This document shows positions 4,445-23,444 of a DNA stretch of 23,444 bases, piece by piece. Source of the stretch: a virus; IMG/VR virus record IMGVR_UViG_3300010883_000497, positions 1 through 23,444 of that record; one strand, 5' to 3'. The notes below the pieces were generated by a model. That model was not told where the DNA came from, did no database searches, and saw nothing but the letters and a program-made list of their open reading frames with translations. Every line of letters starts with the position of its first letter. Position 1 is the first letter of the stretch. A program made the position numbers and the translations under genes.

Positions 4445-6652
4445 ATGTATAATAGTAAAGAATTTAAAGACTCAAATGTAAATTATATGGATAAAGATTT
4501 TAATGCATTAAAAAGTGCGTTAGTTACTTATGCTAAGACATATTATCCAAATACTTATAGAGATTTTAACGAAACATCTCCTGGTATGATGCTAATTGAA
4601 ATGGCAGCATATGTTGGTGATGTATTATCATTTTATATCGACCAACAATATCAAGAAATGTTATTACCATTAGCTGAGGAAAGAAGAAATATTATAAATG
4701 TTGCAAATATGTTAGGTTACAAAGTAAAACCTACAACCCCAGCTAAAGTAGATTTAGATGTTGTATTAAAAGTAGCTGCAGATACATCTGACATTAATAA
4801 CCCCATTCCAAATTTTAATGACACTTTTATTATTAAAGAGAATATGCAATTAACTTCTACTATAGATTCAACAATATATTTTGAGACAAAAGATTCTATA
4901 GATTTTAATGTTAGTAGTTCTGCTTATGAGGCCCCTGTTCCTATAGAATTTAATGCGACTACTGGATTAGTAACCTATTATGAATTAAAAAGAAAAGTAA
5001 GGGCTATATCAGGACAGACAAAAACAAAAACAGTAACTATAAGTGAGCCTAAGAAATTTTTAGAGATAGTACTATCGGAAAAAAATGTCATTGAAATCAT
5101 ATCTGTGACAGATAGTAATAATAACAAGTGGTATGAGGTACCTTACTTAGCACAAGATAAGATTCCCCTTGAAACTTTTTATACAGACCATGGAATGAGA
5201 AATGACTCAGAAGGTAACGCTAATGCTTATTTAAATATAGGTGATGATGGTACTCAAGTACCCGTAGATGTTGCAGTTCCATATACATTAGAGTATGTGA
5301 AAACAACAAAAAGATTTATAACTGAAGTTGATGAGGAAAATCAAACAAAAATAGTTTTTGGAAATGGGTTTTTAAGAACTGGTATGGATGCCGATTATGG
5401 TACTCAGTTTATGAATACAGAACAAGCAGGTATAACTATCCCAGGAAGTGCCGTAAATATAGATGGAGAAATTAGCCACACATTAGGTGATAGTTATTCA
5501 ACTTTAGGTGAAACACCAAGTAATACTATATTGACAATTCAATATAGAACTGGTGGTGGTATAAATACTAATGTTAATGTTAGTGACTTAACAAAATTTA
5601 CTGCTACTACTATCCCATTAGGTACAAGTGTTGCAAATGTTACTGTTAATAACCCGGAGCCAGCAAGAGGAGGTTCTGAAGGTGAGACAGCCGATGAAAT
5701 AAAACAAAGAGCAAAAGCATTTTTCTCGACACAAAACAGATGTGTAACTAAAGAAGATTATGAAGCTAGAGTTTTAAATTTACCTGCTAAATTCGGGAAT
5801 ATAGCAAAAGTTATTGTTGAAAATACTGAAATATCTAATCCTGAGCTCAATGGTGCACCTTCAGATTACTATAATCAAGCTTTAAGTTTATTAGGTAATA
5901 TTATAACCAATTCTTCTAATGGTAGTTTAGATGGTGATGGGGCTATTACTACATATATAGAGGAAATGATAGCATCGGGTGACTATAATTTATTAGATTT
6001 AAATGAGGATGGAGTATTAGATACAAGTGATGTATCTCAACTGATGGCAGGTATAACAAGTAATATAGGAACTATAGGTATAAATTTATTATCATATAAT
6101 AATAAAAAAGAACTAACTGCTACACCAGAGTTATTAAAAACAAATTTAAGTAACTATTTAAGTCAATATAGAATGCTTACTGATACTGTAGTTTTATTAC
6201 CTGGATTTATAATTAATTTTGGTGTATTGTTTGATGTTACATCACATAAGAGTGCTATAAAACAGGAAGTTAAAATCAATTGTATAAAAAAAATAATAGA
6301 TTATTTTAATATCAGTAAAATGCAATTTAAACAACCTATATATTTAAGTGATTTAGAATATGAGCTAATGAGTGTTGATGGTGTTAGGTCTGTAAACGAT
6401 ATTGTTATATCACAAGATTTTAATTATAATTTAGATAATGCCGACAACATTTTAGGGAATCTTTATAGTTATAATATAGAGGGTGGAGGTAGTGTAGATG
6501 TATCATCTGTCAGTGGAACAACAGGTTATGGATATTATTATGATTTCGAAAACGCAGTAGTTTCAAATGGAAGTATGGTTTTACCATCATTAGAGCCTGC
6601 TGTATTTGAATTAAAACAGCCAAATAAAAACATAAAGGGGATAATAAGATAA
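4445..6652 (+). CDS. gp6: Baseplate wedge subunit gp6, with dockerin-like insertion
   Basis: gp6 dimers form the inner ring of the baseplate and join the wedges. The N-terminus is very characteristic: FNETSPGMMLIEMAAYVGDV, then SFYIDQQYQEMLLPLAEERR and NMLGYKVKP. The middle carries the gpJ/gp6-type core with GGSEGETADEIKQRA and a KEDYEARVLNLP segment (about 410-450). At 735 residues it exceeds T4 gp6 (660). Part of the excess is an insertion at about 485-540 with a good EF-hand/dockerin-like loop, D518-x-N520-x-D522-G523...D526..D529, following a weaker SLDGDGAI half. The C-terminal domain (about 560-680) is again gp6-like. A GGAG lies upstream, and the stop overlaps the next ATG (TAATG). Confidence 0.92.
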   Translation: MYNSKEFKDSNVNYMDKDFNALKSALVTYAKTYYPNTYRDFNETSPGMMLIEMAAYVGDVLSFYIDQQYQEMLLPLAEERRNIINVANMLGYKVKPTTPAKVDLDVVLKVAADTSDINNPIPNFNDTFIIKENMQLTSTIDSTIYFETKDSIDFNVSSSAYEAPVPIEFNATTGLVTYYELKRKVRAISGQTKTKTVTISEPKKFLEIVLSEKNVIEIISVTDSNNNKWYEVPYLAQDKIPLETFYTDHGMRNDSEGNANAYLNIGDDGTQVPVDVAVPYTLEYVKTTKRFITEVDEENQTKIVFGNGFLRTGMDADYGTQFMNTEQAGITIPGSAVNIDGEISHTLGDSYSTLGETPSNTILTIQYRTGGGINTNVNVSDLTKFTATTIPLGTSVANVTVNNPEPARGGSEGETADEIKQRAKAFFSTQNRCVTKEDYEARVLNLPAKFGNIAKVIVENTEISNPELNGAPSDYYNQALSLLGNIITNSSNGSLDGDGAITTYIEEMIASGDYNLLDLNEDGVLDTSDVSQLMAGITSNIGTIGINLLSYNNKKELTATPELLKTNLSNYLSQYRMLTDTVVLLPGFIINFGVLFDVTSHKSAIKQEVKINCIKKIIDYFNISKMQFKQPIYLSDLEYELMSVDGVRSVNDIVISQDFNYNLDNADNILGNLYSYNIEGGGSVDVSSVSGTTGYGYYYDFENAVVSNGSMVLPSLEPAVFELKQPNKNIKGIIR
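5909..6060 (+). other. Dockerin/EF-hand-like insertion within gp6
   Basis: Encodes SLDGDGAI followed by DLNEDGVLDTSDVSQLM. The second loop has the full calcium-loop pattern D1-x-N3-x-D5-G6-x-L8-D9-x-x-D12, followed by a short hydrophobic helix as in type I dockerins. The first half keeps D3, D5, G6 and I8 but lacks the acidic residue at position 12. Conserved gp6 sequence flanks it on both sides. Calcium binding is inferred, not shown. Confidence 0.55.
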
Positions 6653-7809
6653 TGCATTTTTACATTTTTCCACAAAAAGATACTTGGTTGAACGAGGCTA
6701 CCTCATCACAAAATTATGGTGGAGATGAGATATTAGAACTAAGTAAAAATATATCAACTGCTGGTGATACAGCAGCATTAAATGGAGTCACGAGAATTTT
6801 AACAGCATTTGATTTTGTTGGTACAAATTCATTAGAAGAAATGGTTAATAAAGGGTTGATACCTTCTGTGGGTACAGGTAGTGGGCAATCAAAAATTTCT
6901 TTAAGATTATATAATACTGAAGCTTCAGAACTATCAACTGCCTATAATATAGTTGCTTTTCCTATATCACAAGATTGGGAAGAAGGTTCAGGTAAATTTC
7001 ATCAAGACCCTATTGTGAAACAAGCTGCAACCTGGGATTATAGTAATTATGATAAGACTGCAGTGTGGGATGGTAATGGAGTAACTGTAAACACTGGTAG
7101 TCGGACTGCAGGTGGTGGCGCTTGGTTAGGTGGATTTACAAATTATGGTACTCAATCTTTTTCATACGAGTCTCCTGATATTAATATGGATGTTACAGAT
7201 ATATGTAGGGGTTGGCTAAATGGCGATAATAATAACTATGGTTTAATTTTAAGATTTAGTGGAAGTCAAGAAACAAATACAACAACAACAGGTAATATAA
7301 AATTCTTTTCAAAAAATACTAATACTATATATGCTCCAAAATTAGAAGTTAGGTGGGACGACCACAACCCTATTACTGGGTCAGTAACTGGGAGTATGGA
7401 AGCATTAGATTTGACTGGAGAGACTGATAATATTTTATATGTAAAAAGATTAAGGGAAAAATATAAAGAGGGAGAGAGAGTTAAGTTTAGAGTAGGTGGG
7501 AGAAAAAGATACATAGATAAAACTTTTACAACTTCTATTCATTATGCATCAAGCTCGTATATTGCAGAAGGAAGTGGTTCATATTCTATACAGGACCAAT
7601 CGACTGGTGATGTTATTGTACCATTTGAAGTCTCTGGTGGTACATCATATACACAACTATCAGCTGATAGCAGTAGTATGTTTTTTACGCAATATTTGGA
7701 TACTTTTGAACCAAATAGAATATATAAAATTTTATTAAAATTGAAAACTGATGATGGTCAAGAACAAATTTTTGATGATGATTGGGAATTTGCAGTAGTT
7801 AAAAAATAA
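6652..7809 (+). CDS. DNRLRE-like beta-sandwich virion protein
   Basis: This 385-residue protein starts with a pattern typical of DNRLRE/disaggregatase-type carbohydrate-binding domains: QKDTWLNE at 8-15, NYGGDEILEL at 21-30, then a long beta-rich stretch. The family's late signature, DVTDICRGWLNGDNNNYGLI, lies at about 180-200. The remaining part (about 235-385) is Ser/Thr-rich beta with a basic KRLREKYKEGERVKF patch. No signal peptide or membrane segment is visible, as expected for a virion protein assembled in the cytoplasm. It overlaps the gp6 stop by one base (AAAGGGG at 6634-6640) and lies where gp7 is usual in marine T4-like phages. Glycan or cell-surface binding on the baseplate is inferred from the domain; the exact T4 counterpart is not identifiable. 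Confidence 0.75.
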   Translation: MHFYIFPQKDTWLNEATSSQNYGGDEILELSKNISTAGDTAALNGVTRILTAFDFVGTNSLEEMVNKGLIPSVGTGSGQSKISLRLYNTEASELSTAYNIVAFPISQDWEEGSGKFHQDPIVKQAATWDYSNYDKTAVWDGNGVTVNTGSRTAGGGAWLGGFTNYGTQSFSYESPDINMDVTDICRGWLNGDNNNYGLILRFSGSQETNTTTTGNIKFFSKNTNTIYAPKLEVRWDDHNPITGSVTGSMEALDLTGETDNILYVKRLREKYKEGERVKFRVGGRKRYIDKTFTTSIHYASSSYIAEGSGSYSIQDQSTGDVIVPFEVSGGTSYTQLSADSSSMFFTQYLDTFEPNRIYKILLKLKTDDGQEQIFDDDWEFAVVKK

Positions 7810-7826: not shown

Positions 7827-9545
7827 ATGTCAACAATTGCAAGAAGAAAGATAATATCTAAGAGGATAGCTGAACTATGTGCACAGGCGTTTACTACGAA
7901 TGGTGTATCGGAAGTATTTGCCTTAGAAGATTTACAACGAACAATAGATAAAACAACTGGTATACCTAAAATAGGTCGAGCTGATGATAGTGATAATGTG
8001 TTGCTGTTTAGTAATACATTAGTTGGTTCTATAGAAGACAATGAATTAATTAGACATATAGATACTAATATATTAAATAATGTTGACAACCAATCGTTAG
8101 CAGAAAAGTTTTTTATACGAGCAGATTTATTTGGAATAGCTATTGATGCAACTGGTATGGCACCTCTACTTGTTGGCGGGGTGATTGTTTGGCAAGAAGA
8201 TTACTTATATAATGTTTGGTTTTTAGATGAGACTGCAGCCAACCCACCATTTGGGTATGATAATACACAATCTCAAGGTACATACTCTATAGAAAATTTA
8301 TCTGCAGGTGGTAACAATCCATATAATATTTCTCAATTTATAGACTTTAATCAGATACAGACAGAAATAGATTTAACTCAAGCAAAAAAAGTATTAGACT
8401 TTGATATAACAGAACTTATTCCAGAATATATAACACAACAGGATAAAATAAATAATTTTTTTACTGATTATTTAACATTAAGAGGTGAGTTACCAAATTT
8501 TGAAGATTTAGATTCAGATTCAATAATTGAAGAATTGACAGAAGATGGGTTTGTTGATGATTATCAATCAAGAATTAGTAGTGGTAATAATTTAGGATAC
8601 ATTACACGAGTAGATGAATCAGTAGATAGTTTAAATACAGATAAAACTTTAGAGTGGTTAAGGAATGATTTAAATAAATATTTAAAAGACATAGATAAAA
8701 TCGTTGTACCTGAATTTGATGATGCGAGACCAGAATATGAAAACAAATCAGATGGATATATTAAACTAAGAGCATTAAATCAAGGTATAATTATAAGAAA
8801 ACAAGAAGGTACTGATGTTGGTATTTCTGATTATATATCGACTGATGTCTGTGATGGTCCAAGTTTTCAATGTGATGGTTTTACAATTACTATGTGGGTG
8901 AAATTTTTAGACAGAGTAAACACTGGTACATTATTTAATTATGGTAATCCTTTAAGAGCATTTGACCCAAGAGGATTTCAATTACAAACTTATGTAATTT
9001 ATGCAGATGATGTTATGGGTGGCACTCATAGTTTTACTGGTCAGACTTGGCGACAATATGCAACTTCAATAGGTCAAGAAAATATATTTTCTGATGATTA
9101 TGTAAGATTTGTAAGATTAATTGTTAAAGACCATAGTGGTCATATAAGAGATAGCCATCTAGGATATGATTGGTCAACTGACCACAAAAGAAATAATTCT
9201 ATAAGTTGGACTAATGTTACATATCCCCAATTTGGTTCTAATAATGAGTTTTTACTAATAAATTATACACAGATACCTATTAATTTTGAAGAATGGTATT
9301 ACATTGTTGCGTCATTTGACCCAACAGTTGAAGAAGAAAGTTATGAGAATGGGGGTGTAGTAGTATATGACGATACAATTTTACCCTCCTTACCATTATG
9401 GTGGTTGGGTCATCTACAAGCTGCAAACACTCCAAACACAATACCATCTGCATATATTGCTGATTCTGGATTTGGTGCAAAATGTAAAATTGAGTTTATT
9501 TCAAAAAGTAAATTATTAAGAGCCCGTGGTTATAAGCCAGAATAA
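7827..9545 (+). CDS. LamG-like (concanavalin fold) virion protein
   Basis: This 572-residue protein is preceded by AGAGG at 7816-7820. The N-terminal half (1-320) is an unrecognised acidic, mostly helical region: a basic start (STIARRKIISKRIAELC), then a fold around VWQEDYLYNVWFLDE, then an Asp/Glu-rich stretch. It may be the baseplate-attachment part. From about 330 the sequence becomes a LamG/concanavalin-like jelly roll: DGFTITMWVKFLDR at about 350, and EEWYYIVASFDP near 486, which is the WxHxxxTFD-type strand of this fold. The end (SKSKLLRARGYKPE) is basic. LamG domains commonly bind sugars or glycosylated surfaces. A receptor-binding or adhesin role is inferred from this domain and from the next genes. 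Confidence 0.75.
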   Translation: MSTIARRKIISKRIAELCAQAFTTNGVSEVFALEDLQRTIDKTTGIPKIGRADDSDNVLLFSNTLVGSIEDNELIRHIDTNILNNVDNQSLAEKFFIRADLFGIAIDATGMAPLLVGGVIVWQEDYLYNVWFLDETAANPPFGYDNTQSQGTYSIENLSAGGNNPYNISQFIDFNQIQTEIDLTQAKKVLDFDITELIPEYITQQDKINNFFTDYLTLRGELPNFEDLDSDSIIEELTEDGFVDDYQSRISSGNNLGYITRVDESVDSLNTDKTLEWLRNDLNKYLKDIDKIVVPEFDDARPEYENKSDGYIKLRALNQGIIIRKQEGTDVGISDYISTDVCDGPSFQCDGFTITMWVKFLDRVNTGTLFNYGNPLRAFDPRGFQLQTYVIYADDVMGGTHSFTGQTWRQYATSIGQENIFSDDYVRFVRLIVKDHSGHIRDSHLGYDWSTDHKRNNSISWTNVTYPQFGSNNEFLLINYTQIPINFEEWYYIVASFDPTVEEESYENGGVVVYDDTILPSLPLWWLGHLQAANTPNTIPSAYIADSGFGAKCKIEFISKSKLLRARGYKPE

Positions 9546-9560
9546 TAAAAGGAAAATTTA

Positions 9561-12500
9561 ATGGCAACTGAAGATTGTAAAATATATCGTACTAATCTTA
9601 CTTATGGTAGTGGTGGTGATTATGACGAAACTAATAATACAGATTGTGATATGCCAGCTGGAATATGGATGAGTTCTGGTGGTCATCAATGGACAGTTGG
9701 TGGTCAATGTGATAGTGCATGTTGTTTGAATAATGGTGATTGTGGTAACAATGGTAATGTTTATTGTAATGCTTATAATTGCAATGCAGGTTCCATGCGT
9801 GGCATCGAGGAGGCGGCACACGACCAAGATTGTAGAACATCAGACGCAGCTACTGCAGATGGACTTTCCTGGGGTTGTTCAGGTTTTTGGGATTGGAATT
9901 GTTCAGGAAATTGTGCTTCAGATAATGGCCTAGCTACACACTATGATACTCCTGTAGGAGCGAGTCAAACCTCCCCAGCTCTTGATGCATATGCATCACC
10001 ATTTTATTGTTGTACATTAAACGACCAATATGAAGAATATACCCAAACAGGCCTGGCAAAGAGTTATTGGGGCCCGAATCCAACTGATGAAGGTTTATTT
10101 ACCTCTAGAGCTGCTAGGTTTGATGGTGTAGATTTTATTGGAATGGTTACTTCTCCATTTACATATCAGGGTTATTATTATGCAAATGGTATACCAAATA
10201 GTGCAGATGGACCGACCGGGGATATAGGCCTAGCTTGCAAAAAACACGGGGCTTCTGATGCATTACACGAGGGTAGCTTGGGCCATGCTAACTCTGGTGG
10301 CAATTGGCCATTTGGAAGTTGCACATGGGATAATTGTGCAGGTCAACAAGGTGGTTGTAGCGCTCCATCACCACATACAAGCTTTAATGGACTAAATCTA
10401 CATGGTTGGGCAAATCTAGCCCAAGGGGCAGAGTTCTTCCCAGATGATGCAACAAGAACACTTCATAATGCAGTTTGTATTAATTATTATATAGATGGAT
10501 GTGGTGTCTGTAGAGCAGATAATTGGACTCCACCAACTGGTTTTAATGCAGATGGTACAGTAGATTGTGAAAGTATTGACGACTATTGTTACACAAGTAG
10601 TCTAATATGTGATACATCTGATTGTCCTAAAAGAAACGAGTGTGGTGAATGTGGAAGTGCATATGGTGGAGCTCCAAGTGCGTCTTATTGTACAGACCAA
10701 TGTGGTAGTGTGAATCCTAATGATTGTACATACCCAGGTACAGATGTTACAGAGTGGTATATTTATAATTGTACTAATAATACAGATGATTATGCTGAAT
10801 GGAATAGTAGTTGTTTCGGTTGTTCAATGTCAGAATGGGGTGGTACAGCAGGTATTATAGACGATGGTTCTTGTGACCAAGATTATACTTCTGTACAACC
10901 CGAATCTATATTAAACCAACATGGATATCATACTGATTTAGTTATTTTACCAACTATAGAAAATCAAACTTATTATGTGAGTAGGGTCGGTATTGATGTC
11001 ATTACCACCCTCAGTACATCAGGTAGTTCATATACTTGGGGATATAGTGTTGACTATGGTCCAGGTTGGCATAATTCCCACGCAAATAGTGGATTCATTG
11101 GTTCTGTTGGTCCAGGTAATAGTAGCGGCGGTTATTTTGCGGGTTGGTTAAGTGCTAAAATATATGATTCAGAAGTAGATATGACAGATATTTATGGAGG
11201 GCAATATACTGAAGATGTAGAAGATATAACAAATACTCAGTTAGTAAATAATAATACTATTAATATTTATGAAGATTATAATGATTGTGCACAACAGGTT
11301 ATAGATGATATAGATTTTAATTCGTCTGAGTGTGACAGTGTTTCTGGTTTGTGTGCTGACATACCAACTTGTAGTTCAACCGGTGATAATTTAACTATTC
11401 ATGCATTTCAAACTCCAAGAGATGGTACAAGCGGTGCACATAATAATTTAAGAAATTTCTTTTTCAAAGTACCATATAAATATAATTCAATAGATGTTAA
11501 AATATATGCTACTTTAGCTAATAATATTGATAGTTATAAGAATGTTGCAATATTTACGAAAAAAGCAACAGACTCAGTTGGTAACTATGCAACTGTTGAA
11601 GTACCATCTGATTGGCTAACTGGTGTATATCGGATTACAACTCCTCAAATGGTTATAAATGAAGGTAATGCTGCCGGCTCATTACAAATGCATTGGAATA
11701 GTTTTTGTTTAGATTCTTCTGTAGCTACAGAAGATGGTATAGGATATTATGATATAGATGAATACATAAAAGGGGAAGTTTCAGGAGTTGAGAGAGGTTG
11801 GGTATACCACGACACGGGTGTATTGAGTGGTTTATCAGGTGGTGATGAAATATATTTTTCAGTAGTACCAACACATTGTGATATAGGGTCGGTACAATAT
11901 CCGTTTAAAGTTTGGTTAGGTATAGAAGCGATAGAAGGTTGTACTGATGCATCAGGTTTAAATTACAATAAAGAAGCAAATAAAGATGATGGTAGTTGTA
12001 ATTATGGTTGTTTACCTGGTATAGGTGCTGCAAATGGTAATTTGTCACCTACTTATACTATAAATGGTGGGGTAAGTGATGCAAGTAGTTTCAAACCAAC
12101 TAATAGTAATGTGGATGCACAATGGATACTCGGTGGGTCTGACCACCCTAATTCTTTTTTACATCACGACTCTACTGACCATAGTAATCAACCTTGTTTA
12201 GAATCAGTAAACTTTAATGAACAAAATGATGCTGGAAGAAGAGTGAAAGCTAGTGCAGATGCATCTTGTTATGATGCAGATTGGATGAGATTTAGATTTT
12301 TATATATTTGGTTACCAAGAGTATCAAAGACTTACATTGTATCCTTTTATTATAAGGGGTTTAGTGGTAGCAGTATAAGAACTGATATGAGACAAGTAGC
12401 GACAGATGGTAATGAGTCTGATTATAATGGTACTGGTGCAATATATTCTACTGGAAATCATGGTGGTGCTCTATGGGCAAACCACCAGATTAAAACGGGC

Positions 12501-15500
12501 TCGAATCCAAGAAATATACAGGGATGGTATTATTTTGAAGCTGAATTTGAAGTACCCACTCCTAACAGTACAAATGCTGCAGACTTTTATCACCCAATAA
12601 CAAATGAGCCGGGTGTTAGATGGACATTCAGTCAATACTTTGGAGAAGTAACTGGTGCAACTTTAGTTGATTATAGAATTAGAGAAAAAGACGATAATAC
12701 TACTTTACCATTATTAGATTGTTGTTATGATGGTAATAGTACATCATTTTGTGATTGTCCTGAAGGTAATGCACCAGGAACAGGATGTGTAAAAACTATG
12801 TGTAATTTAAATCCTGGGAATAATGATTTTGATGGTACATTTGGGTATGATTGGAATGTATATAGTGATAGTTGGGAATGTGATGGAGATGATTGGACTC
12901 TATGTGGTGCTGTTTGGTATTTACCTAATCTAAATAATAGTGAAGTGGGTGTAGCAACAAATGCATGTGGATTACACTACGATAATGTTTTAGCTGATGG
13001 TTATGGTGGTGATAATTGGATTAGATTCGATGATAGCTTTGAAAGATATGGCAATCAAGATACTGGACATTGTGGGTATTGGAGTAGTGCTTCTGTATGT
13101 GATATAGAAACAGGTAGCGATACAGGTGGAGATGATTTTTTAGATTGTCTATATGGGTCTCCTCAAAATACATTTGAAGTTGGTGGAGTGGTTTGTGGTT
13201 GTTCATCAACCGCTGATGGAGAAACTATAGGTAGTAATGACACAGATTATAGATATACAGGAAGAGCACCTCATTATTGTTGTCTGGATTATACTGATAG
13301 TACTCAATGTGATGGTAATTGGCAACAAGAAACTTTATCTATTAATCCTACACCGACAAGTAATACTAATAGTTGGTTAACATATTTTTATCCTGGATTT
13401 ACAGGTTATTCTAATAGTATACATTGTGGTAATCCTTCTTCTTGCCCTGCCTCTAAAACTTTTGAAGCAGATTCTCAAATACAATGGCCTGGTGACACAA
13501 TAACAGAATCCCATACATCTCCAATGGGAGACCAATCTCAGTATAACAATTTAAAAATATCTTTAGCTTCCTCAATCGAAAAATCAGAATACATATCAGA
13601 CCTCACAGATGGTGGTCCGGGATATCCTGAGTTAGGTCAAAACACAGATACATATGGGTGTTCAGAAATAGATGGATATAAAAAATGGGATACAACTGCG
13701 GGTGAATTAACTTTTAATTGTAATTACAATCCTAGTAATACTGCTACACTTATAGATGATGGGACTTGTGTTGGAAATAACACTAAAAGTAATTCAGTTC
13801 CAGAAGAAAATGAATATGGTAGTAACGCTTTCTGGAATGATTACAGACTTAGTGGTTTTGGTGACACTCAAGGAACAAATACTCATTGGAAATATGGAGA
13901 CATAAGTTTACCTGCAACAGCAGGTATCAGACCACACCCCGTTTATAATAAATATTTTCCTTGTACTTGCCAACCCTGTGAGACAACAGATTTACTATTT
14001 GATGGCAATGGATATTGGCAAGGATATCAAGCGGGTTATGATTTTGTAAATTGCCCAACCAAATATTTCTGGGATTCTGATGGTGATGGTATTGGTTGTA
14101 GTTCTGAAACTGGTGAAGCACCAGAACCAAGGTGGTTATGCCCTGGTGATGAATTACTCGTACCTCACGCAGACAATTCTAATTACCCAGGTGAGGTGTC
14201 TAAATGGACACTACCTCTATTTTGCATTGACAATAGATGTCAAATGACAAATCAACAATGTGATATTTTACAAGATTGTTTAGAATCAAATGAAAATCAA
14301 TGTGAGTGTCCTAATACTTGTGATTCAAATGGAGCTCACCCTGAACAATGTGAATGTAGTTGTAATTGTTGGGTAGATAGTAATGAAACTTGTACTGGTG
14401 ATTGGGATGCTGCTGATGGATTTGAAATATCATTTCCAAAAATAGCGTGTAATGATGGCCAAGGAAATAGTGACTGCCCTTGTAATAATGCATATCATAT
14501 GGTAGATGGTGAACCAAGTGGTGATTCAATAGGTAATCCATCTCAAATACTACCAACAGGTGAAATGTCAAGATTTTCTTGTATTGACAGGTGTGGTGAA
14601 TGTTCTATGCCAGGATGTACAGATGATTTAACAATGAATGGTTGTAATAATAAAGAAGATGCATGTGGGCAGTGTCAATCTACTACAACTGCTGGTGCTA
14701 GATGTAATGGTAGAAAAGATAATTTATATATGAGTGGTGTATCAGTAGGAGAATTTTATGCTGGTCAGACTCACCCATCAGGAAAAGGTGGTTGTTGTAG
14801 ACCTGAAAATTGGGATTTAAGAGTTAATTATTATGGTGAGGGTGGTAATGATAAGTGGTTTGAAAATGTAAATGGTGCAGGTGGCATGGATTGTCACGGA
14901 GTATGTTTTGGAAATTCAGTAATAGACCAATGTGGGAATTGTACAGTAGAACCGGGTGAGGATAGTGCAACAACCTCTCCAATATCCTGTTTAGGTAACC
15001 AACATTTAGATGGTACTTATCTTCATTTTGATACTGCCGGAGTAGAATTTTATTTATCTAATCAAGGGCAAATACAATCACCTGATGTAGATACACCTAC
15101 TAACAATGCTGGTAATAATTGGAGTCCTAGTATAAATTGTTTAACATATGAAGACCAATATGAGTGGGATGGTACTTATTGTGTATATAATTGGGCAGTA
15201 GATAGTTGTGGAAAATGTTATGGTGCAAATGCTGATGTACATGGTTGTTGTATCGATGATACTGGTGATACAATTTCAAACGCTGTTAATATACGAGAAA
15301 ATACTACGAGTACTGGTTGGAATACTTTTCCTGAAATGCTATTTGCATTCTCAGAATTTGAACCACCTAAAGAAAAATTAGTGCACCATTATAGATTTAT
15401 AGAAGACTATCCATACACCGAAATCGCTGTATATAATGGAGACCCGGTATATTTATTTGATGAAAAGGGTACTCACTTATTATTATCAAGTTATCGTAGT

Positions 15501-18500
15501 GCAGGCTTTGCAACTTGTACTGAGGTCCAATATTGGAATGGTGGAACTTGGCAAACTTCTAATTGCGGCTGCGATGTTGCAGAAGGTACTAATGTAGAGT
15601 GTAGAAGTGTAGATGGTGATGTAGATGGTTTTACTAGTACAAATAATTTTGCATATAGAGTATTATGTTTAGCACCAGATGGTAATTTGTATCCTCAATT
15701 TCTTTTTCTTGCCTCATCAAATTGTTTATATGGTGGTGATTGTACAATCTGGCCAGAATATGCTGTAACAGCAACACAAGCATGTGAAACAGCAGGAACA
15801 TTTCATTATTCTGATGATGCTCCGGAACATTTAAATGGTCAACACTCATTAGAAATAAGAAGTTCTAACTTATCATATAATAGTACTGATGCATCTGGTT
15901 GGGGCTCACAAACAGAAATAGACAATTTAAATTTATATACAACTGATTTTAGAACATTAGACTTAGTAGAAGTTGGCCCAACTAAATATACACAAGGTAA
16001 TAGTTGGACAATATCAGGATGGATTAAACCTAATATGCAAAGTATGTTACCTGGTGGTGACAACCATGTTAATGACACTCAGATATTTAGTTTAACAGGT
16101 GGTAAATTTATTGATTGTTTTGCATTATTCAATAGTGAGAGAGAACTTTGTGAATGGTCGACTGTAGTAGGGAATCAGATGATGTTTGTTTTCAATGGTG
16201 AAAGTGGTTATGGTACTGACGGGGTTCTTAGTGGAAATTATGGAAAAGTGGTGCTAAAATTTAATAGAACTACTATTGCAGGTACCCACACCACGAATGT
16301 GAATGAGACTATTCCTTCTATAGACAGAATTATTACTGATACACCATCCATTAAATGGCACCATTTTTCTATAGTATATCATCATAATCAAGATTGGGTA
16401 TTGTTAGGTGATGGGTCCCAAAACAGAAAGAATTTTATAGAATTTTATATTGATGGTGCATATCAAGGTGGTATGACAACAGATACTTTTCTTTTTGGTA
16501 AATTTAATTTGTTTGCTGATGGTGATGGTTCAGAATTAAATCAATTTCCAAATATGAAAATAAAAGATTTAAAAATGCACCAAGGTAAAGTTTATCCACC
16601 AATTAGACATTATAAATTTAATGATGCAGCTGCATCAATAGGTGAGGATACTAGTTTTTATGGAACTAAAGATGCATCTTTATTTGGTGGTGCAACAATA
16701 ACTAATGATGGTTTAGTACTTGATGGTGCACCATCTACTAGTCCCGGACAATTCGCTTTAATAAATGAACCAATACCTTCTTCAGATACTTTTACTGTTA
16801 TGGCTTGGGTAAAAGGTCGACCGGATGGTGGATATAGTGGTAATTGGAATATGATTTCAGCTTATGGTGAATCTGGTTCTGGCCAAAATCAACAATTTAT
16901 TCTTGGGCAGACTAGTGGTGAACGGATTACATTTTTAATAAAAGGCCCAAGTGGTTGGATAGGGCCTGGATATAACACAGGATTGGATTGTATTGAAGGT
17001 ACAAGTTACTATACTGTTCCAAATGCAAACGAATGGCATCACTTTACAGGAACTTTTGATGGTAATAGAATAAAACTTTATGATAATGGTAAAGAAGTAA
17101 ATACTTGTACACTTGTAACACCTGTTAGTATGCCAGAAAATACTGGTGCAACAACTGCAATAGGTGCAAGAAGTTATTGTATAAATGATACTGGTACTAT
17201 TGTAGACCAAGGTCAATGTAGTTGGTTCGATGGTATAATAAAAGATGTGAGAATTTACACAACTACACTTGAACAAAACCAAATTAAAGATATAGTTAAT
17301 AATGATGTTAATCAATTATTTGATAGAACAAATTTTTCAAACAACAATCCAGAAGGTATAAATATAGTTGACCAAACAAGTTCATTAAGTTATTCTTGGG
17401 ATTATGGCACAAATAAGTTTATTGGTTCTGGAACATTTGATATTGGGACTGAATATAAATTTATTCCTCCTTCTCTACTTGGAGCTGCTGTAGGATGTAC
17501 AGACTCTTTAGCTTGTAACTATAATATATCAGCTGATATAAATGATGGTAGTTGTACTTATCCAGAATATCCAGATTGTAATTGTGAGGGGACTGAACAA
17601 TATGATTGTACTGGTAGTTGTGTCAATATAACTGATACTGCCAATTTTGGTGTCAACGATGAATGTGGTGTATGTGATGGTGACAATTCCTCTTGTTCAG
17701 GTTGTATGGATATTAATGCTTGTAATTATGATGCTGCAGCAACTATAGAATGTGAATATGGTGATGAAAGTGATACTTGCTGTGAATACCCAGAAGAAAA
17801 TTTTAGTTGTGATAATGTATGTATGAACATTACAGATTGTGCTGGAGTATGTAATGGAAATGGAGTAGAAGATTGTTCAGGTAATTGTAATGGTGACGCT
17901 GAATTAGATGATTGTAATATATGTAATGGTGGGAATTATTTTGATAGTTCTAATCAAATTATAGCTGGTGGGTCTCTCCCTACAGGAAATTGTAGTTGTA
18001 TGAATACCGATGAATCAACTTTTATTGATTGTTCTGGTATGTGTGGTAGTGAAACTAGTTCTTATTTTTCTAACTTCGATAGTTGTGGAAATTGTTCAAG
18101 ACAAAACCCAAATGTAACTAATTATAACGAGTATTTAGATGATATTTTCATAAATGAAAATATTAGAATGGCAGAAGTTTGTACTAATATTTTAGACGGG
18201 TGTTCACTCGTATTAGTAGATAATCATCTAATATGTTATCCTGAAAACACAGAATTAGATAGAGATGCAAGTTTTCCAGTACCAATATGGATGTTTTATA
18301 ATATACTAAATAATCATAATTTTGATAACCTTGATGCTGAAAATGGAATTTATACAAGTGGGATAACACAAGCATTATGTACAAGTATAAGTGATACTTG
18401 TGGAGCAATTACTGGACCAGAAGATACTCCCTTAATATCCCAAATGGGAACATTATCATGCTATCTCGGGTGGAATGGTTCTCAAGATGATTGTGGTGTA

Positions 18501-18821
18501 TGTAACGGGCAGATATTTGACGGGTGTCCAGCAGGTGACTCTATAGATTGTGAACCAAACCAACAACTTCAAGATGGTAATTGTTATAATATTTATGACT
18601 TTAATCAAAGTGGTACTTTTGATTTCAGCGATTTAGTTTTTCAAATGGATTATATTAATTATGTAAATACGGGTGACTCTAATTTTAATACTGATGAAAG
18701 CCTTTTTACTGACGATACATTAGTTGACATATTTACAAGTGGTGATAATATAAGTAATCAATTAAACATAATTGATGCAGTAAAAATGATAAAAGCTATG
18801 AAAGATTTGGGGGACATATAA
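9561..18821 (+). CDS. Giant cysteine-rich multidomain adhesin-like protein (3,086 aa)
   Basis: The gene is preceded by AAGGAA at 9549-9554. The N-terminal part (1-370) is very Cys- and Gly-rich. A GCTD...DDGSC module is at 793, a degenerate copy (CNYNPSNTATLIDDGTC) at 1387, and two better copies at 2645 and 2714. CGxC motifs recur at 314, 361, 1678, 1702, 1791, 1883, 2702, 2842 and 2978. A region near 915-1050 (TYIVSFYYKGF ... WYYFEAEFEVP) resembles a carbohydrate-binding beta-sandwich. A DSDGDGIGC motif is at 1505. Two LamG-like domains lie at about 1940-2345 and 2347-2580. The C-terminus (about 3013-3075) is dockerin-like. No signal peptide is visible, fitting a virion protein. The likely role is a tail- or baseplate-attached fibre or adhesin; this is inferred from domains and operon position. 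Confidence 0.8.
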   Translation: MATEDCKIYRTNLTYGSGGDYDETNNTDCDMPAGIWMSSGGHQWTVGGQCDSACCLNNGDCGNNGNVYCNAYNCNAGSMRGIEEAAHDQDCRTSDAATADGLSWGCSGFWDWNCSGNCASDNGLATHYDTPVGASQTSPALDAYASPFYCCTLNDQYEEYTQTGLAKSYWGPNPTDEGLFTSRAARFDGVDFIGMVTSPFTYQGYYYANGIPNSADGPTGDIGLACKKHGASDALHEGSLGHANSGGNWPFGSCTWDNCAGQQGGCSAPSPHTSFNGLNLHGWANLAQGAEFFPDDATRTLHNAVCINYYIDGCGVCRADNWTPPTGFNADGTVDCESIDDYCYTSSLICDTSDCPKRNECGECGSAYGGAPSASYCTDQCGSVNPNDCTYPGTDVTEWYIYNCTNNTDDYAEWNSSCFGCSMSEWGGTAGIIDDGSCDQDYTSVQPESILNQHGYHTDLVILPTIENQTYYVSRVGIDVITTLSTSGSSYTWGYSVDYGPGWHNSHANSGFIGSVGPGNSSGGYFAGWLSAKIYDSEVDMTDIYGGQYTEDVEDITNTQLVNNNTINIYEDYNDCAQQVIDDIDFNSSECDSVSGLCADIPTCSSTGDNLTIHAFQTPRDGTSGAHNNLRNFFFKVPYKYNSIDVKIYATLANNIDSYKNVAIFTKKATDSVGNYATVEVPSDWLTGVYRITTPQMVINEGNAAGSLQMHWNSFCLDSSVATEDGIGYYDIDEYIKGEVSGVERGWVYHDTGVLSGLSGGDEIYFSVVPTHCDIGSVQYPFKVWLGIEAIEGCTDASGLNYNKEANKDDGSCNYGCLPGIGAANGNLSPTYTINGGVSDASSFKPTNSNVDAQWILGGSDHPNSFLHHDSTDHSNQPCLESVNFNEQNDAGRRVKASADASCYDADWMRFRFLYIWLPRVSKTYIVSFYYKGFSGSSIRTDMRQVATDGNESDYNGTGAIYSTGNHGGALWANHQIKTGSNPRNIQGWYYFEAEFEVPTPNSTNAADFYHPITNEPGVRWTFSQYFGEVTGATLVDYRIREKDDNTTLPLLDCCYDGNSTSFCDCPEGNAPGTGCVKTMCNLNPGNNDFDGTFGYDWNVYSDSWECDGDDWTLCGAVWYLPNLNNSEVGVATNACGLHYDNVLADGYGGDNWIRFDDSFERYGNQDTGHCGYWSSASVCDIETGSDTGGDDFLDCLYGSPQNTFEVGGVVCGCSSTADGETIGSNDTDYRYTGRAPHYCCLDYTDSTQCDGNWQQETLSINPTPTSNTNSWLTYFYPGFTGYSNSIHCGNPSSCPASKTFEADSQIQWPGDTITESHTSPMGDQSQYNNLKISLASSIEKSEYISDLTDGGPGYPELGQNTDTYGCSEIDGYKKWDTTAGELTFNCNYNPSNTATLIDDGTCVGNNTKSNSVPEENEYGSNAFWNDYRLSGFGDTQGTNTHWKYGDISLPATAGIRPHPVYNKYFPCTCQPCETTDLLFDGNGYWQGYQAGYDFVNCPTKYFWDSDGDGIGCSSETGEAPEPRWLCPGDELLVPHADNSNYPGEVSKWTLPLFCIDNRCQMTNQQCDILQDCLESNENQCECPNTCDSNGAHPEQCECSCNCWVDSNETCTGDWDAADGFEISFPKIACNDGQGNSDCPCNNAYHMVDGEPSGDSIGNPSQILPTGEMSRFSCIDRCGECSMPGCTDDLTMNGCNNKEDACGQCQSTTTAGARCNGRKDNLYMSGVSVGEFYAGQTHPSGKGGCCRPENWDLRVNYYGEGGNDKWFENVNGAGGMDCHGVCFGNSVIDQCGNCTVEPGEDSATTSPISCLGNQHLDGTYLHFDTAGVEFYLSNQGQIQSPDVDTPTNNAGNNWSPSINCLTYEDQYEWDGTYCVYNWAVDSCGKCYGANADVHGCCIDDTGDTISNAVNIRENTTSTGWNTFPEMLFAFSEFEPPKEKLVHHYRFIEDYPYTEIAVYNGDPVYLFDEKGTHLLLSSYRSAGFATCTEVQYWNGGTWQTSNCGCDVAEGTNVECRSVDGDVDGFTSTNNFAYRVLCLAPDGNLYPQFLFLASSNCLYGGDCTIWPEYAVTATQACETAGTFHYSDDAPEHLNGQHSLEIRSSNLSYNSTDASGWGSQTEIDNLNLYTTDFRTLDLVEVGPTKYTQGNSWTISGWIKPNMQSMLPGGDNHVNDTQIFSLTGGKFIDCFALFNSERELCEWSTVVGNQMMFVFNGESGYGTDGVLSGNYGKVVLKFNRTTIAGTHTTNVNETIPSIDRIITDTPSIKWHHFSIVYHHNQDWVLLGDGSQNRKNFIEFYIDGAYQGGMTTDTFLFGKFNLFADGDGSELNQFPNMKIKDLKMHQGKVYPPIRHYKFNDAAASIGEDTSFYGTKDASLFGGATITNDGLVLDGAPSTSPGQFALINEPIPSSDTFTVMAWVKGRPDGGYSGNWNMISAYGESGSGQNQQFILGQTSGERITFLIKGPSGWIGPGYNTGLDCIEGTSYYTVPNANEWHHFTGTFDGNRIKLYDNGKEVNTCTLVTPVSMPENTGATTAIGARSYCINDTGTIVDQGQCSWFDGIIKDVRIYTTTLEQNQIKDIVNNDVNQLFDRTNFSNNNPEGINIVDQTSSLSYSWDYGTNKFIGSGTFDIGTEYKFIPPSLLGAAVGCTDSLACNYNISADINDGSCTYPEYPDCNCEGTEQYDCTGSCVNITDTANFGVNDECGVCDGDNSSCSGCMDINACNYDAAATIECEYGDESDTCCEYPEENFSCDNVCMNITDCAGVCNGNGVEDCSGNCNGDAELDDCNICNGGNYFDSSNQIIAGGSLPTGNCSCMNTDESTFIDCSGMCGSETSSYFSNFDSCGNCSRQNPNVTNYNEYLDDIFINENIRMAEVCTNILDGCSLVLVDNHLICYPENTELDRDASFPVPIWMFYNILNNHNFDNLDAENGIYTSGITQALCTSISDTCGAITGPEDTPLISQMGTLSCYLGWNGSQDDCGVCNGQIFDGCPAGDSIDCEPNQQLQDGNCYNIYDFNQSGTFDFSDLVFQMDYINYVNTGDSNFNTDESLFTDDTLVDIFTSGDNISNQLNIIDAVKMIKAMKDLGDI
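15372..16598 (+). other. LamG-like domain 1 of the giant protein
   Basis: Residues about 1938-2345. It opens with LVHHYRFIED, continues with NSWTISGWIKP, and carries the hallmark IKWHHFSIVYHH strand followed by FIEFYIDGAYQGG. A Cys-rich insertion (CTEVQYWNGGTWQTSNCGC) sits between the first strand and the core. Confidence 0.65.
16599..17304 (+). other. LamG-like domain 2 of the giant protein
   Basis: Residues about 2347-2581. A complete and typical jelly-roll pattern is visible: IRHYKFNDAA at the start, DTFTVMAWVKGR, EWHHFTGTFDGNRIKLYDNG, then WFDGIIKDVRIYTTTL before the closing helix. It directly follows the first LamG domain. Confidence 0.75.
18591..18818 (+). other. C-terminal dockerin-like pair of the giant protein
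   Basis: The first loop is D3013-x-N3015-x-S3017-G3018-T-F-D3021-x-x-D3024, followed by a hydrophobic helix. The second, 50-60 residues later, is weaker (N3069, D3072) but has the typical LNIIDAVKMIKAM helix of dockerin-type repeats. The domain closes the protein, the usual place for a dockerin module. Calcium binding is inferred. Confidence 0.55.
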
Positions 18822-18824
18822 AAA

Positions 18825-21800
18825 ATGCCTTTACCAGAAAATACTATAAAATTTACCTATAAAGGATTAAAAACAAAAAATACAAATTTTTGTGCAGAAA
18901 ACTTTAACGACCTTAATACACAATATGTATGTACTTCTGTAGGTAGTTTTGAACCTCATAATTATAATGATGATGGTTCTGGTGGATGGTCAGTATTTGA
19001 ATATTTTGGTAATAATGCAGACTCAAGATTGTCAGCAGCAAATTCGTGTCAAACATATGGGGTTAATAATTCTTCATATTATGTACCAGTAGAAGCAGGT
19101 AATGATATATTAGATTGTACAGATAAAAATGCACAAAACTATAATCCAGCTGCTACTGCAGATAATGGGGAATGTAGTTGTTATTTTGAAAATTGTTTTG
19201 GTTGTACAGACTCAAACGCTTGGCAATATGATTCTTCTAATCAAGTTTTTATTTCTTGTGCTGATGGCGGACCATGTGTTGATAATGGTAGTTGTATATA
19301 CATATCTAACCCATATTCTACAGATTATTTAGAAAATTTAGATAGTATAGTAAATGATGATTATATCACTTGGCCGTGTGTAAGTCTAACTGGTTTAACT
19401 AGTTTTCCTTCACCTTATTATTATGATAATGATAGTGATGGTACAGGATGTGGGTTACCTGAATATTTTTGTCAGTATAACGCAGATGATTATGAAACTT
19501 ATAGTTCTATTAACAATGATTTTGGATTTGAGGAGGATTATGTAGCAATGGGTGGTGACGCTCTTTGTATATGCCCTTCCAATACTGATGTTTTTACACC
19601 AGAATATCAATGTTCTGCAGATAATAATGAATTTGTTAGTAATGCCAATAATAATTGTGGTGATATTGGATATATAACAGGTATTATAATGAATGGTGAT
19701 GGGTGTGGGTATTGTAAAGATTGTGCATTTGACCAAGATTCTTGTGAAGAAATAACTGAAGATTTATTTCAAACATATTGTCAAGTTAATTTAGGTGATA
19801 GTTATTGTACAGCATTACCATTATTTATTAGTGGTGCTTATAATTCTATTGAATTTACAAATATCGTGTATGAATGTTTACAATTAGGACCAGAAGCATT
19901 GTATGTATCAACTTTAGATGGTTATGATGAAGCAACCAATATCTGGCAAGATATCCATAATGTTAATTGGGTACAATATTCTCCAACTGGGAATAGTTTT
20001 ATAACTGATTATAATGCTAATAATTCAGATACAGAAATTATTCCATGCTCTAAATATGAATCAGGTACGCTATTAGAAGGGCAATGCATTCCTAATATAG
20101 TTGGATGTACAGATGATAATGCATTAAATTTCCTTGACCAACCAGTTTTAGAATGTATACCAAATGTAAATTGTCACGCTTATAATTTATGTGATATGTG
20201 TCCTACAGGAGTATGTGGAGAGCAAGCTGATGGTTCTGGAATGTGCCCTAATATATCAGATGCTAATAGATGTGACTATGGTTGTGGAGAAGGAGTTTCT
20301 GCAAATACTCAAATTTGCTGTCAGGATAGTTTTAGACAACAATCGGGAGAACCATTAACAATAGAAGGACCATTAGGTTATAGTGGTGTGGCATCAAATA
20401 ATAGATGTGATATAGTAGTTGGTTCAGCTCCATCAGAAACTATAAATCCATCGGGTGCTATTTTATCTACTCAAATATGTGAAACAGAAGGATTATTTGC
20501 AAAACACCCAAGATTAAGTGAAGGTAATTTAACATTAGGAGGATATCAGTATCAAGGAGTAACTGTTCCAGTATGTAATAATGTAAACAGAACTTGGGAA
20601 GGTATAGATAGACAATATATTGATTATGGTGGTGGTGCACACGATAAGTATGCATGTAATGGCTCATCAAATGAATCAAACTACACTTTTGAAATAGTAG
20701 AACGGGAAGATTTAGAATTAGGAGGGTGGATTAGTACAGAAGAAGCTTTAATAAGTCCACAAAATCAATATATGCCTGGTGGATTTAGCACTACCATAGA
20801 TGTAGATAGTTTACACTGGAGTCAATATTGTGATTATGGTTGTGGAATAAATGCAGGAGGAGCGGGAGATAGTGAAGAATTATTTATAGCAAATACATTA
20901 GAAGAATGTTGTGCTGATATAAATCAAGATTACACATGCGATAATCCTGCAGACAATGTTTTAATATGTAGAAATCATAATGATAGTCATAATGATGCAT
21001 ATATGTTTACAGAAGCCTCATCGTGTCAAGGTTTAGAAATATCAGAATCTACAACGGATATTGGTAATCTTCCTCTGAATTTAGATTGGATGTATACAGT
21101 TAATCAATACCATAATTCTTGGATTCCTGCAAATCCTGATTTTGGATTAGGAGTTATTGAGGGATGTGCAGACCCAACTGCTTTAAATTATTTTAACCAA
21201 GATATTTGTTTATCACCACCAGAAGAAGGTGGGTGTGGTGGATATTGTGGTGTACAAATTTGGCCAGAAGAATCTGGTGAAGGAGATTTAGTAGTTATGT
21301 GTCCTAACACACCAACAGTTGGTAGTTGTGATTATGGTTGCGGGCAAGGAGTCGGGGAACATATAAGTAGTGGATGGCAATCTGATGAAGATAGAATTAT
21401 AAAACCAGTACCACCCTTCTTGTTTGTCCCTTCTAGCGTAGAAGCCGCAGGCTGGGAGTTAGAATATAATCACCCATATGACGAAGATACTGTATGGTAT
21501 AATATAAAATGGTGTACAGAAGGTCAAGAAAATATTATTAGTGGGGCTCAAACACAATATAGAAATTATCCAGTTGATAATCCAAATGAATTTGAGATTA
21601 AAAAATATCCACTATGTCAGTCTGTTGGTAATACAGATTTAGTTTATGCTGATGGTTTATATCCAAACAATGATGGTGTAAAAGATACATTCAGAGGTGA
21701 AAGAATGACTAGTTATAATCACCAGATTGGTGCACCAGATGATTTCACAAGACCTGGAATGTTATATTTAGACCCAACGGGTACCCAAACAGATTGTAAT

Positions 21801-23444
21801 AGTATATGGAGTAGTGAATTATATCCACATATAAGTCAAACTTATATAACAGAAAATCAAAATAATTCCCTTCCACTATTTAAACATTTTTTCCAATATA
21901 CAATTCTCAATAATGACATATTTATGCCTGAATATGTTACCATGGAACAATATTGGCAAGAAACAATGTCAGACTATACTGACTCAAGTTATTATTGGGT
22001 AGAACACGACAATATTGGATATACAACTGGTTGTAGAATGAGTGCAGCTATAAATTATATATACCAAAATCCTTGTAGTGATTGCCCTACAGGAGTGTGT
22101 GGAGACCAATTAGAAATAACAAATGAAGGTCAATTATATAATACTTGTCCTTCTATACAGACAACTGGGTGTGATATTTGTGAAGGGTGTGATGAAAGCG
22201 AAGCGAGTGGGTGTAGTTGTGATTATGGTTGTGGTGAAGGTGTAGGTAATTCTTATCAAAATACATATAACGATTACACAACAAAATGTTGTTTAAGTGT
22301 TGATACAAATAATACAAATTTTCTCGGAAATACTGATAGTAGTTTAATATGGGAATATGCAGATTATAGTGGTGGATTATGTGGTTTTTACAATTCAACT
22401 ACAGATGATTTACTACCAAATGCATTTGGTGGTGTTAAAAGAGAATTAAGAGTATGTAATACTTATGGTACAAATACTTGTCAAGATAATACCTTTAACA
22501 AATTTAATATATCTGAAGTTGATGGTACTATTACACCAGGACCAATTGCAGAAATATGTACACCCGATTCACACTATTTATATTCACCTAATCAAGAATG
22601 TATTGGAGTTGATTCTACTGATATATATTTACCTCAAGTAGGTGTAACTGGAGAGTGGATAGATTCAACGAACACTAATATAACATTTGGTTGTACTGAT
22701 GGTCAAGGTAGAAATGGTACACTAAATCCTCAAGATGAGGGTCAGGATGTTGAAATCTTTTGGAAAGCGTATTGTAATTTTGGTTGTGGATACGGAAGTG
22801 AAAACCCTACAACAGGTGATTCTATACAAAATTTAACAGAATTTAGATACTATTATGAATTTAAATGTTTAAAAGATGATGGTGTTGCTGATGATGATAG
22901 CTTACCAGGAGAAAATACTTGGGACCACCCTTATTGGCCAGCATTACCACATAATAAATTTATAGATTTAAATTATGCATCAGCTGATACTATGAAAATG
23001 TGTAGAAGAGTTTCTTTTGCTGTTTATAGCGGTGCAGATTATGATTTATCGCAATTGGGAACCAACTTTTATTTTAACGCTTCCGCTGACCCTTATTTAT
23101 CTGGAGAATGCAGTGACCTCGGTCATGGTGAAGATTTAATATCAGAAAAACTATGTGGTAATTATTTTGGACAAACAGATATTCAATTAACACCACATTC
23201 TGGTTTTACACAATATGATTGTGAAGTATTAGATAATTCAACATATGTAGACAGATATACAGAAGTAGAAGGATGTACTGAATCTAATGCATGGAATTAT
23301 TTATATCAAAATCCTTGTAGTGAGTGTCCTACAGGTAATTGTGGTATACAAACTGGATATGAGGTAATGTCTACAGGTGCACCAGAACAATGCCCAACAA
23401 TACACGATGGTAATTTTTTCACAATACCAGATACATCTTTTGAA
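18825..23444 (+). CDS. Second giant cysteine-rich repeat protein, 3' end outside window
   Basis: The frame is open from the ATG at 18825 to the window end: 1,540 codons without a stop. The ATG is three bases after the previous TAA and in the same frame. No strong Shine-Dalgarno is present beyond a GGGGG about 12 bases upstream, so coupled translation is likely. GCTD-type modules occur at residues 97 (DCTDKNAQNYNPAATADNGEC), 126, 427, 780, 1069, 1289 and 1483. CPTGxCG motifs follow at about 460, 1088 and 1502 with a looser one near 803. CDYGCG-type motifs occur at 483, 669, 835, 1132 and 1317. A YDNDSDGTGCG segment lies near 206. No LamG or enzyme domain is evident. The protein is probably an elongated virion adhesin; this is inferred from context. 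Confidence 0.8.
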   Translation, partial: MPLPENTIKFTYKGLKTKNTNFCAENFNDLNTQYVCTSVGSFEPHNYNDDGSGGWSVFEYFGNNADSRLSAANSCQTYGVNNSSYYVPVEAGNDILDCTDKNAQNYNPAATADNGECSCYFENCFGCTDSNAWQYDSSNQVFISCADGGPCVDNGSCIYISNPYSTDYLENLDSIVNDDYITWPCVSLTGLTSFPSPYYYDNDSDGTGCGLPEYFCQYNADDYETYSSINNDFGFEEDYVAMGGDALCICPSNTDVFTPEYQCSADNNEFVSNANNNCGDIGYITGIIMNGDGCGYCKDCAFDQDSCEEITEDLFQTYCQVNLGDSYCTALPLFISGAYNSIEFTNIVYECLQLGPEALYVSTLDGYDEATNIWQDIHNVNWVQYSPTGNSFITDYNANNSDTEIIPCSKYESGTLLEGQCIPNIVGCTDDNALNFLDQPVLECIPNVNCHAYNLCDMCPTGVCGEQADGSGMCPNISDANRCDYGCGEGVSANTQICCQDSFRQQSGEPLTIEGPLGYSGVASNNRCDIVVGSAPSETINPSGAILSTQICETEGLFAKHPRLSEGNLTLGGYQYQGVTVPVCNNVNRTWEGIDRQYIDYGGGAHDKYACNGSSNESNYTFEIVEREDLELGGWISTEEALISPQNQYMPGGFSTTIDVDSLHWSQYCDYGCGINAGGAGDSEELFIANTLEECCADINQDYTCDNPADNVLICRNHNDSHNDAYMFTEASSCQGLEISESTTDIGNLPLNLDWMYTVNQYHNSWIPANPDFGLGVIEGCADPTALNYFNQDICLSPPEEGGCGGYCGVQIWPEESGEGDLVVMCPNTPTVGSCDYGCGQGVGEHISSGWQSDEDRIIKPVPPFLFVPSSVEAAGWELEYNHPYDEDTVWYNIKWCTEGQENIISGAQTQYRNYPVDNPNEFEIKKYPLCQSVGNTDLVYADGLYPNNDGVKDTFRGERMTSYNHQIGAPDDFTRPGMLYLDPTGTQTDCNSIWSSELYPHISQTYITENQNNSLPLFKHFFQYTILNNDIFMPEYVTMEQYWQETMSDYTDSSYYWVEHDNIGYTTGCRMSAAINYIYQNPCSDCPTGVCGDQLEITNEGQLYNTCPSIQTTGCDICEGCDESEASGCSCDYGCGEGVGNSYQNTYNDYTTKCCLSVDTNNTNFLGNTDSSLIWEYADYSGGLCGFYNSTTDDLLPNAFGGVKRELRVCNTYGTNTCQDNTFNKFNISEVDGTITPGPIAEICTPDSHYLYSPNQECIGVDSTDIYLPQVGVTGEWIDSTNTNITFGCTDGQGRNGTLNPQDEGQDVEIFWKAYCNFGCGYGSENPTTGDSIQNLTEFRYYYEFKCLKDDGVADDDSLPGENTWDHPYWPALPHNKFIDLNYASADTMKMCRRVSFAVYSGADYDLSQLGTNFYFNASADPYLSGECSDLGHGEDLISEKLCGNYFGQTDIQLTPHSGFTQYDCEVLDNSTYVDRYTEVEGCTESNAWNYLYQNPCSECPTGNCGIQTGYEVMSTGAPEQCPTIHDGNFFTIPDTSFE
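22059..22093 (+). repeat. Direct repeat, copy 1 (QNPCSDCPTG core)
   Basis: This 35-base segment matches 23301-23335 at 31 of 35 positions by direct comparison. It encodes the NPCS(D/E)CPTG core of the composite module. A shorter relative (CCTACAGGAGTATGTGGAG) is at 20202-20220. Confidence 0.75.
23301..23335 (+). repeat. Direct repeat, copy 2 (QNPCSECPTG core)
   Basis: This segment is the partner of 22059-22093, 1,242 bases downstream. Two of the four differences (C/T at the sixth position, C/T before CCTACAGG) are silent or nearly so, suggesting duplication followed by drift under protein-level selection. Confidence 0.75.

Follow-up and report, generated by a model that had tools for sequence, protein, structure and literature searches.

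The window analysed here is the whole 23,444-bp stretch of an IMG/VR virus record. The genes gp25, gp6, X, LamG1 and G1 lie contiguously in it, with short or absent spacers. G1 is one unbroken ORF on the plus strand, with an ATG at 9561 and a stop codon ending at 18821, and encodes 3,086 aa; the preliminary description had given its coordinates, length and single reading frame exactly. It starts 15 bp past LamG1 and ends 3 bp before a second giant gene, G2. The genes of this region are as follows:

3989..4432, plus strand: gp25-like baseplate wedge protein (PF04965, 5e-11; phrog_261, 3e-20)
4445..6652, plus strand: gp6-like baseplate wedge protein (phrog_219, 1e-21)
6652..7809, plus strand: X, a conserved 385-aa protein after gp6
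7827..9545, plus strand: LamG1 (a working label; no Pfam match), a conserved 572-aa protein always preceding the slot described below
9561..18821, plus strand: G1, a 3,086-aa Cys-rich giant
18825..23444, plus strand: G2, another Cys-rich giant, truncated by the end of the contig (1,540 aa or more)

The adjacent gp25 and gp6 homologues, identified with Pfam and PHROGs, bear out the T4-like baseplate operon proposed earlier. No Pfam or PHROGs HMM matched the ORFs at 3436-3987 and 1771-2994, for which gp53/gp5 is suggested by position only. X and LamG1 gave no database family above the cut-off; among the loci compared, matches spanning more than 60% of the length occurred in 84 ORFs for X and in 42 for LamG1, and the gp6 query recruited 437 related IMG/VR stretches. 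X may resemble DNRLRE/CBM96-type domains. The AF2 model of LamG1 was modest (pLDDT 62), and Foldseek searches with it (viral, PDB) found no significant match; legume-type lectins made up many of the highest-ranked PDB rows. Profile searches of the PDB gave nothing significant for X, LamG1 or G1. Promoter and terminator scans of the window found promoter-like sites only at chance level. At the left end, an N-terminally cut ORF (3-650) without an HMM match may, from its position and appearance, encode a T4 gp55-type late sigma factor.

The description of G1 as Cys-rich holds: it has 163 Cys in 3,086 aa (5.3%), against 16 Cys in 3,125 residues (0.51%) for the ten upstream genes, and at the upstream rate the binomial probability of such a count is about 5e-105. 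G1 is also acidic and Asn-rich, with 270 Asp, 269 Asn and a net charge of -287. Its fourfold-site GC (0.12) falls within the range of its neighbours (0.04-0.29), and its higher overall GC is thus due to amino-acid content and not to recently acquired DNA.

Modules of G1 and their cellular relatives

The following features were located within G1:

11937..11999, plus strand: GCTD...DDGSC unit, residues 793-813
14592..15218, plus strand: CGxC motif cluster, residues 1678-1886
16767..17288, plus strand: LamG domain (PF13385), residues 2403-2576
17493..17924, plus strand: GCTD/CGVC/DCAG array, residues 2645-2788
18591..18800, plus strand: dockerin-like end (weak), residues 3011-3080

GCTD occurs at residues 793, 1685 and 2645, with GCMD at 2714; DGSC occurs at 434, 809 and 2661, with DDGTC at 1399. 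Together with nine CGxC motifs, these positions substantiate the GCTD/DGSC modules and many CGxC motifs reported before. The claim of several LamG domains stood for one copy, a Laminin_G_3 match (PF13385, E 5e-19, 69 bits against a curated cut-off of 27.6), which is the one secure recognition-type domain of G1. The supposed second copy at residues 2090-2400 was rejected, as it had no Pfam match and did not align with the first. The dockerin-like end was retained as weak: against a four-sequence phage-dockerin HMM it scored 13.3 bits, above the maximum of 9.6 in 1,000 shuffles, but Dockerin_1 (PF00404) was not found in the C-terminal 96 aa, where Pfam gave only EF-hand_6 below threshold (E 0.12), and AF2 predicted a single terminal helix (pLDDT about 70). 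In AF2 models of the C-terminal part of G1, GCTD units alone were confident and several GCTD/CGxC units only partly so. Besides LamG, the array at residues 2645-2788 is the sole long stretch with homologues elsewhere; most of G1 outside LamG and the GCTD-type units has no detectable homologue.

A pattern search of the genome collection with the phage GCTD-type units retrieved at least 78 loci, and among the matches listed nearly all came from Flavobacteriales, Crocinitomicaceae, other Bacteroidota and Neomarinimicrobiota MAGs. Matches to residues 1-2150 of G1 were present in 48 of the 296 Flavobacteriales genomes and in 7 of the 244 from the Neomarinimicrobiota phylum, nearly always through the GCTD unit near residues 790-818 only. 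In the cellular proteins, GCTD is accompanied by Peptidase_S8, reprolysin, LTD, dockerin, fasciclin and Por_Secre_tail domains, in combinations such as S8 with GCTD (L097), LTD with dockerin in a GCTD protein (L129) and dockerin with GCTD (L089). Phage giants occupying the same position as G1 likewise contain S8 (L209), LTD (L167, L280, L305), dockerin (L167) or CotH with LRR (L015). A BLAST search of the cellular loci with the S8, LTD and CotH domains of the phages gave no match, and hence no sign of direct descent from those particular proteins. In kind, the modules of G1 and its sibling giants are typical of secreted proteins of Flavobacteriales and Neomarinimicrobiota.

Several sibling giants showed further features. 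A fibre-like giant (L209:5270-12334) begins with a subtilase domain (PF00082, 1.1e-29) whose D/H/S motifs look intact, followed by GCTD repeats and a conserved fibre C-terminal domain; another giant (L015:6225-13418) combines a CotH kinase domain (4.8e-29) with LRRs, GCTD units and a weak dockerin. Hint/intein-type domains were found in two giants, members of alignment A8 (PT-HINT 8.5e-10, Intein_splicing 3.7e-05), and a Hint-like 'CFVAGTKVLL' stretch in a third, on the reverse strand of L314 (2992-12573). GCTD units also occur in two phage proteins of 2,780-3,224 aa (L170:2951-11290 and L196:1592-11263), with the operon genes absent from the stretch examined.

No catalytic domain was found in G1 with Pfam, whether the whole sequence or pieces were searched. 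This counts against G1 being a tail-mounted enzyme or processing protein, such as a protease or depolymerase, whose catalytic domain escaped detection; the siblings with an apparently intact subtilase (L209) or a CotH kinase domain (L015) speak for that reading, which we nevertheless consider improbable.

Using a simple hydrophobicity rule, a signal-like N-terminus was called in 76 of the 94 cellular ORFs with GCTD and in none of 53 phage slot giants; G1 and G2 lacked one as well. Por_Secre_tail, the T9SS tail, was also not found in G1 with Pfam. The giants thus look like strings of secreted-protein modules minus the export signals, as would be expected for virion assembly in the cytoplasm, and the earlier suggestion of an extracellular matrix role is left unsupported by the lack of both signals. 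Release of G1 into or onto the infected cell, for host manipulation, superinfection exclusion or as a matrix protein outside the virion, would suit the secreted-protein type of its modules, and other phages with X-type operons do encode GCTD proteins with a signal peptide and a T9SS tail; with neither signal in G1, and with its gene inside a tail operon, such a role seems improbable.

Those T9SS-tailed proteins were observed on phage contigs of up to 245 kb and are GCTD-repeat proteins of 400-1,570 aa whose N-terminus is signal-like and whose C-terminus bears a T9SS sorting domain (L165:8222-11611, L169:644-4201, L240:7613-11548 and about 40 more in L163-L241). Two scanned with Pfam gave Por_Secre_tail at 4e-11 and 2e-11, and an HMM built from these two matched 44 phage ORFs, 38 of them signal-like. 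X is also carried by 6 of 16 tested contigs with such proteins. Among 13 contigs from the group to which the window belongs, no T9SS-tailed protein was found, beyond the shared GCTD units. Phage-encoded type IX secretion cargo would be a subject worth separate study.

The hypervariable slot after LamG1

The distribution of the architecture was checked in IMG/VR, and the position of G1 proved to be a recurrent slot across a large marine phage family. The order gp25-gp6-X-LamG1 followed by a large ORF recurs in dozens of IMG/VR contigs, which are themselves fragments. The large ORF is mostly 1,000-3,500 aa, with Cys from 0.3% to about 10%. Cys-poor and Cys-rich slot ORFs share a conserved C-terminal domain, about 490 aa long, in which a PKD-like part is followed by YWKNIIP...YYPVLPK...SGNxNxGFxIxDY. 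In a census of 116 rows deduplicated by LamG1 sequence (about 115 distinct, L228 and L244 being one contig), the ORF that immediately follows LamG1 had at least 2.5% Cys in 27 rows, about a quarter, and a GCTD unit in 38; the C-terminal domain was present in 67 of the 91 complete ORFs at this place, a fibre-like gene being the usual occupant of the slot. The Cys-rich state was clustered on the X tree, and a single origin of the Cys-rich slots was rejected, the tree needing 10 changes, at least 4 of them forced by strong branches.

The C-terminal domain is absent from G1 (HMMER --max). In six contigs, a fibre-like giant of about 3,100-6,200 aa with the domain comes after one or more additional ORFs, most of them Cys-rich:

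G001: extra ORF of 2,146 aa, then a giant of about 5,367 aa
G007: extra ORFs of 239, 1,007 and 589 aa, then a giant of 3,389 aa
G008: extra ORFs of 1,177 and 715 aa, then a giant of 3,404 aa
G009: extra ORF of 1,514 aa, then a giant of about 6,224 aa
G010: extra ORF of 709 aa, then a giant of 3,107 aa
G012: extra ORF of 3,194 aa, then a giant of about 4,675 aa

Lengths given as 'about' for G001, G009 and G012 are stop-to-stop, from same-frame overlapping pieces of one contig, and the G012 sequence contains a short stretch of N close to the junction. The G009 frame of 6,224 codons (contig positions 36368 to 17697, L312 with L260) is apparently uninterrupted.

The arrangement in the window, a Cys-rich extra giant and then a giant, matches that of the six contigs. 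Judged from their order, G1 would correspond to the extra giant and G2, which has 90 Cys in its 1,540 aa inside the window, is probably the fibre-like slot gene, the orthologue bearing the C-terminal domain. The Cys-rich giants in the slot are positional equivalents of, or additions to, the fibre-like gene.

The same recurrence bears on the possibility that the assembly wrongly joined a phage contig to a bacterial secreted-protein gene, which would make the window a chimera. Much of G1 does resemble bacterial secreted proteins, but it has no signal peptide, its synonymous GC is identical to that of its phage neighbours, and the junction of LamG1 with a Cys-rich giant recurs in many contigs from different metagenomes. 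We rejected a chimera, which is extremely improbable, on the fourfold-site GC and the recurrent junction.

Proposed role and comparison with known systems

The slot giants probably contribute to attachment of the virus to its host. For G1, position and comparison make it most likely, with a probability that we put at roughly 0.6, that it is a tail-associated virion adhesin of a T4-like marine phage, built as a mosaic of captured host-type surface modules. It would be made in the cytoplasm as a late structural protein, together with the products of the baseplate genes, and would probably sit on the baseplate beside LamG1 and the fibre-like giant G2. Its modules (LamG, GCTD/DGSC, CGxC and the dockerin-like end) may have been acquired from marine Bacteroidota or Neomarinimicrobiota hosts or from sister phages, and then diversified within the hypervariable slot. 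G1 would likely form an extended binding arm making multiple contacts with host surface glycans or proteins, presumably stabilised by disulfides or metal; its cysteines may be oxidised after lysis or may bind metal. Several properties count against the adhesin reading: 163 Cys without an export signal are odd, being at odds with a reducing cytoplasm, G1 is without the C-terminal domain of the fibre family, and most of its sequence beyond LamG and the GCTD-type units matches nothing known.

Alternatively, G1 may be a virion protein that attaches to surfaces or matrix in the environment (polysaccharide of algae or particles, host exopolymer) and raises the encounter rate, not a receptor-binding protein. 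The LamG and carbohydrate-type modules would fit this, as would the optional nature of the extra giants beside a nearly constant fibre-like gene, but the kinship of the modules favours host-type proteins over general polysaccharide binders, and we regard this role as unlikely.

The tail-adhesin reading of G1 can be extended, tentatively and at a little under even odds, to the slot as a whole. It would be a cassette site, following the conserved baseplate block in a large family of marine T4-like phages, in which module strings of FCB secreted surface proteins (GCTD arrays, dockerins, LTD, CotH and subtilases that look active) are captured without their export signals and displayed on the tail at up to about 6,200 residues, imitating the host surface for adhesion.

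Module kinship and the T9SS-tailed proteins of other phages lead us to infer a host of the Bacteroidota/FCB type. Among MAGs, one related phage contig lay in a Neomarinimicrobiota-phylum genome and one in a Flavobacteriales genome; these are not decisive for the host because they are only distant relatives. For this uncultured marine phage group the slot points to Bacteroidota/FCB hosts, and X, LamG1 and the C-terminal domain are markers for tracking these phages. A biochemical question is how a protein with more than 160 cysteines made in the cytoplasm stays soluble, and whether these cysteines form disulfides only after lysis or bind metal.

The finding holds up and is broader than the preliminary description had it. 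The absence of a described phage counterpart was confirmed: G1 had no PHROG, NCBIfam or PDB match, tblastn with its halves found no match in 50,697 phage records, peptide-pattern scans of IMG/VR with G1 and G2 gave nothing, and no description of a phage protein of this architecture was found in the open-licence literature. Among cellular proteins, the closest parallels are the secreted GCTD-repeat proteins of Flavobacteriales and Neomarinimicrobiota, which share the GCTD-DDGSC, CGVC and DCAG units of G1, several also ending in a dockerin-like repeat; they differ in having mostly signal-like N-termini and some Por_Secre_tail domains, whereas G1 has neither.

Among cultured phages, the nearest gp6 relatives are in Microcystis phage Mel-JY01 and the Flavobacterium phages immuto. 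In these, homologues of gp6 (34-36% identity) and of X stand in the window's order, followed by large ORFs, but the downstream large proteins are Cys-poor and unlike G1 in sequence. A further parallel is the fibre-like slot gene of the window's own marine T4-like group, defined here (for example L072, L082, L209, L249, L250), which like G1 follows gp25-gp6-X-LamG1, is giant and hypervariable, and is sometimes Cys-rich with GCTD and CGxC; G1 differs in being additional and in lacking the conserved C-terminal domain.

The tail fibres of T4 (gp34-37, gp12) are encoded in a late tail-operon location and have a role presumably like that of G1, but neither G1 nor G2 has a Pfam or PHROG tail-fibre match, in agreement with the earlier view that G1 looks like an extracellular adhesion protein and unlike the classic long tail fibres. 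Most phage adhesins are trimeric fibres containing few cysteines. If our reading is true, a widespread slot of Cys-rich host-type mosaics of 2,000-6,200 residues would represent a different build of the receptor-binding apparatus.
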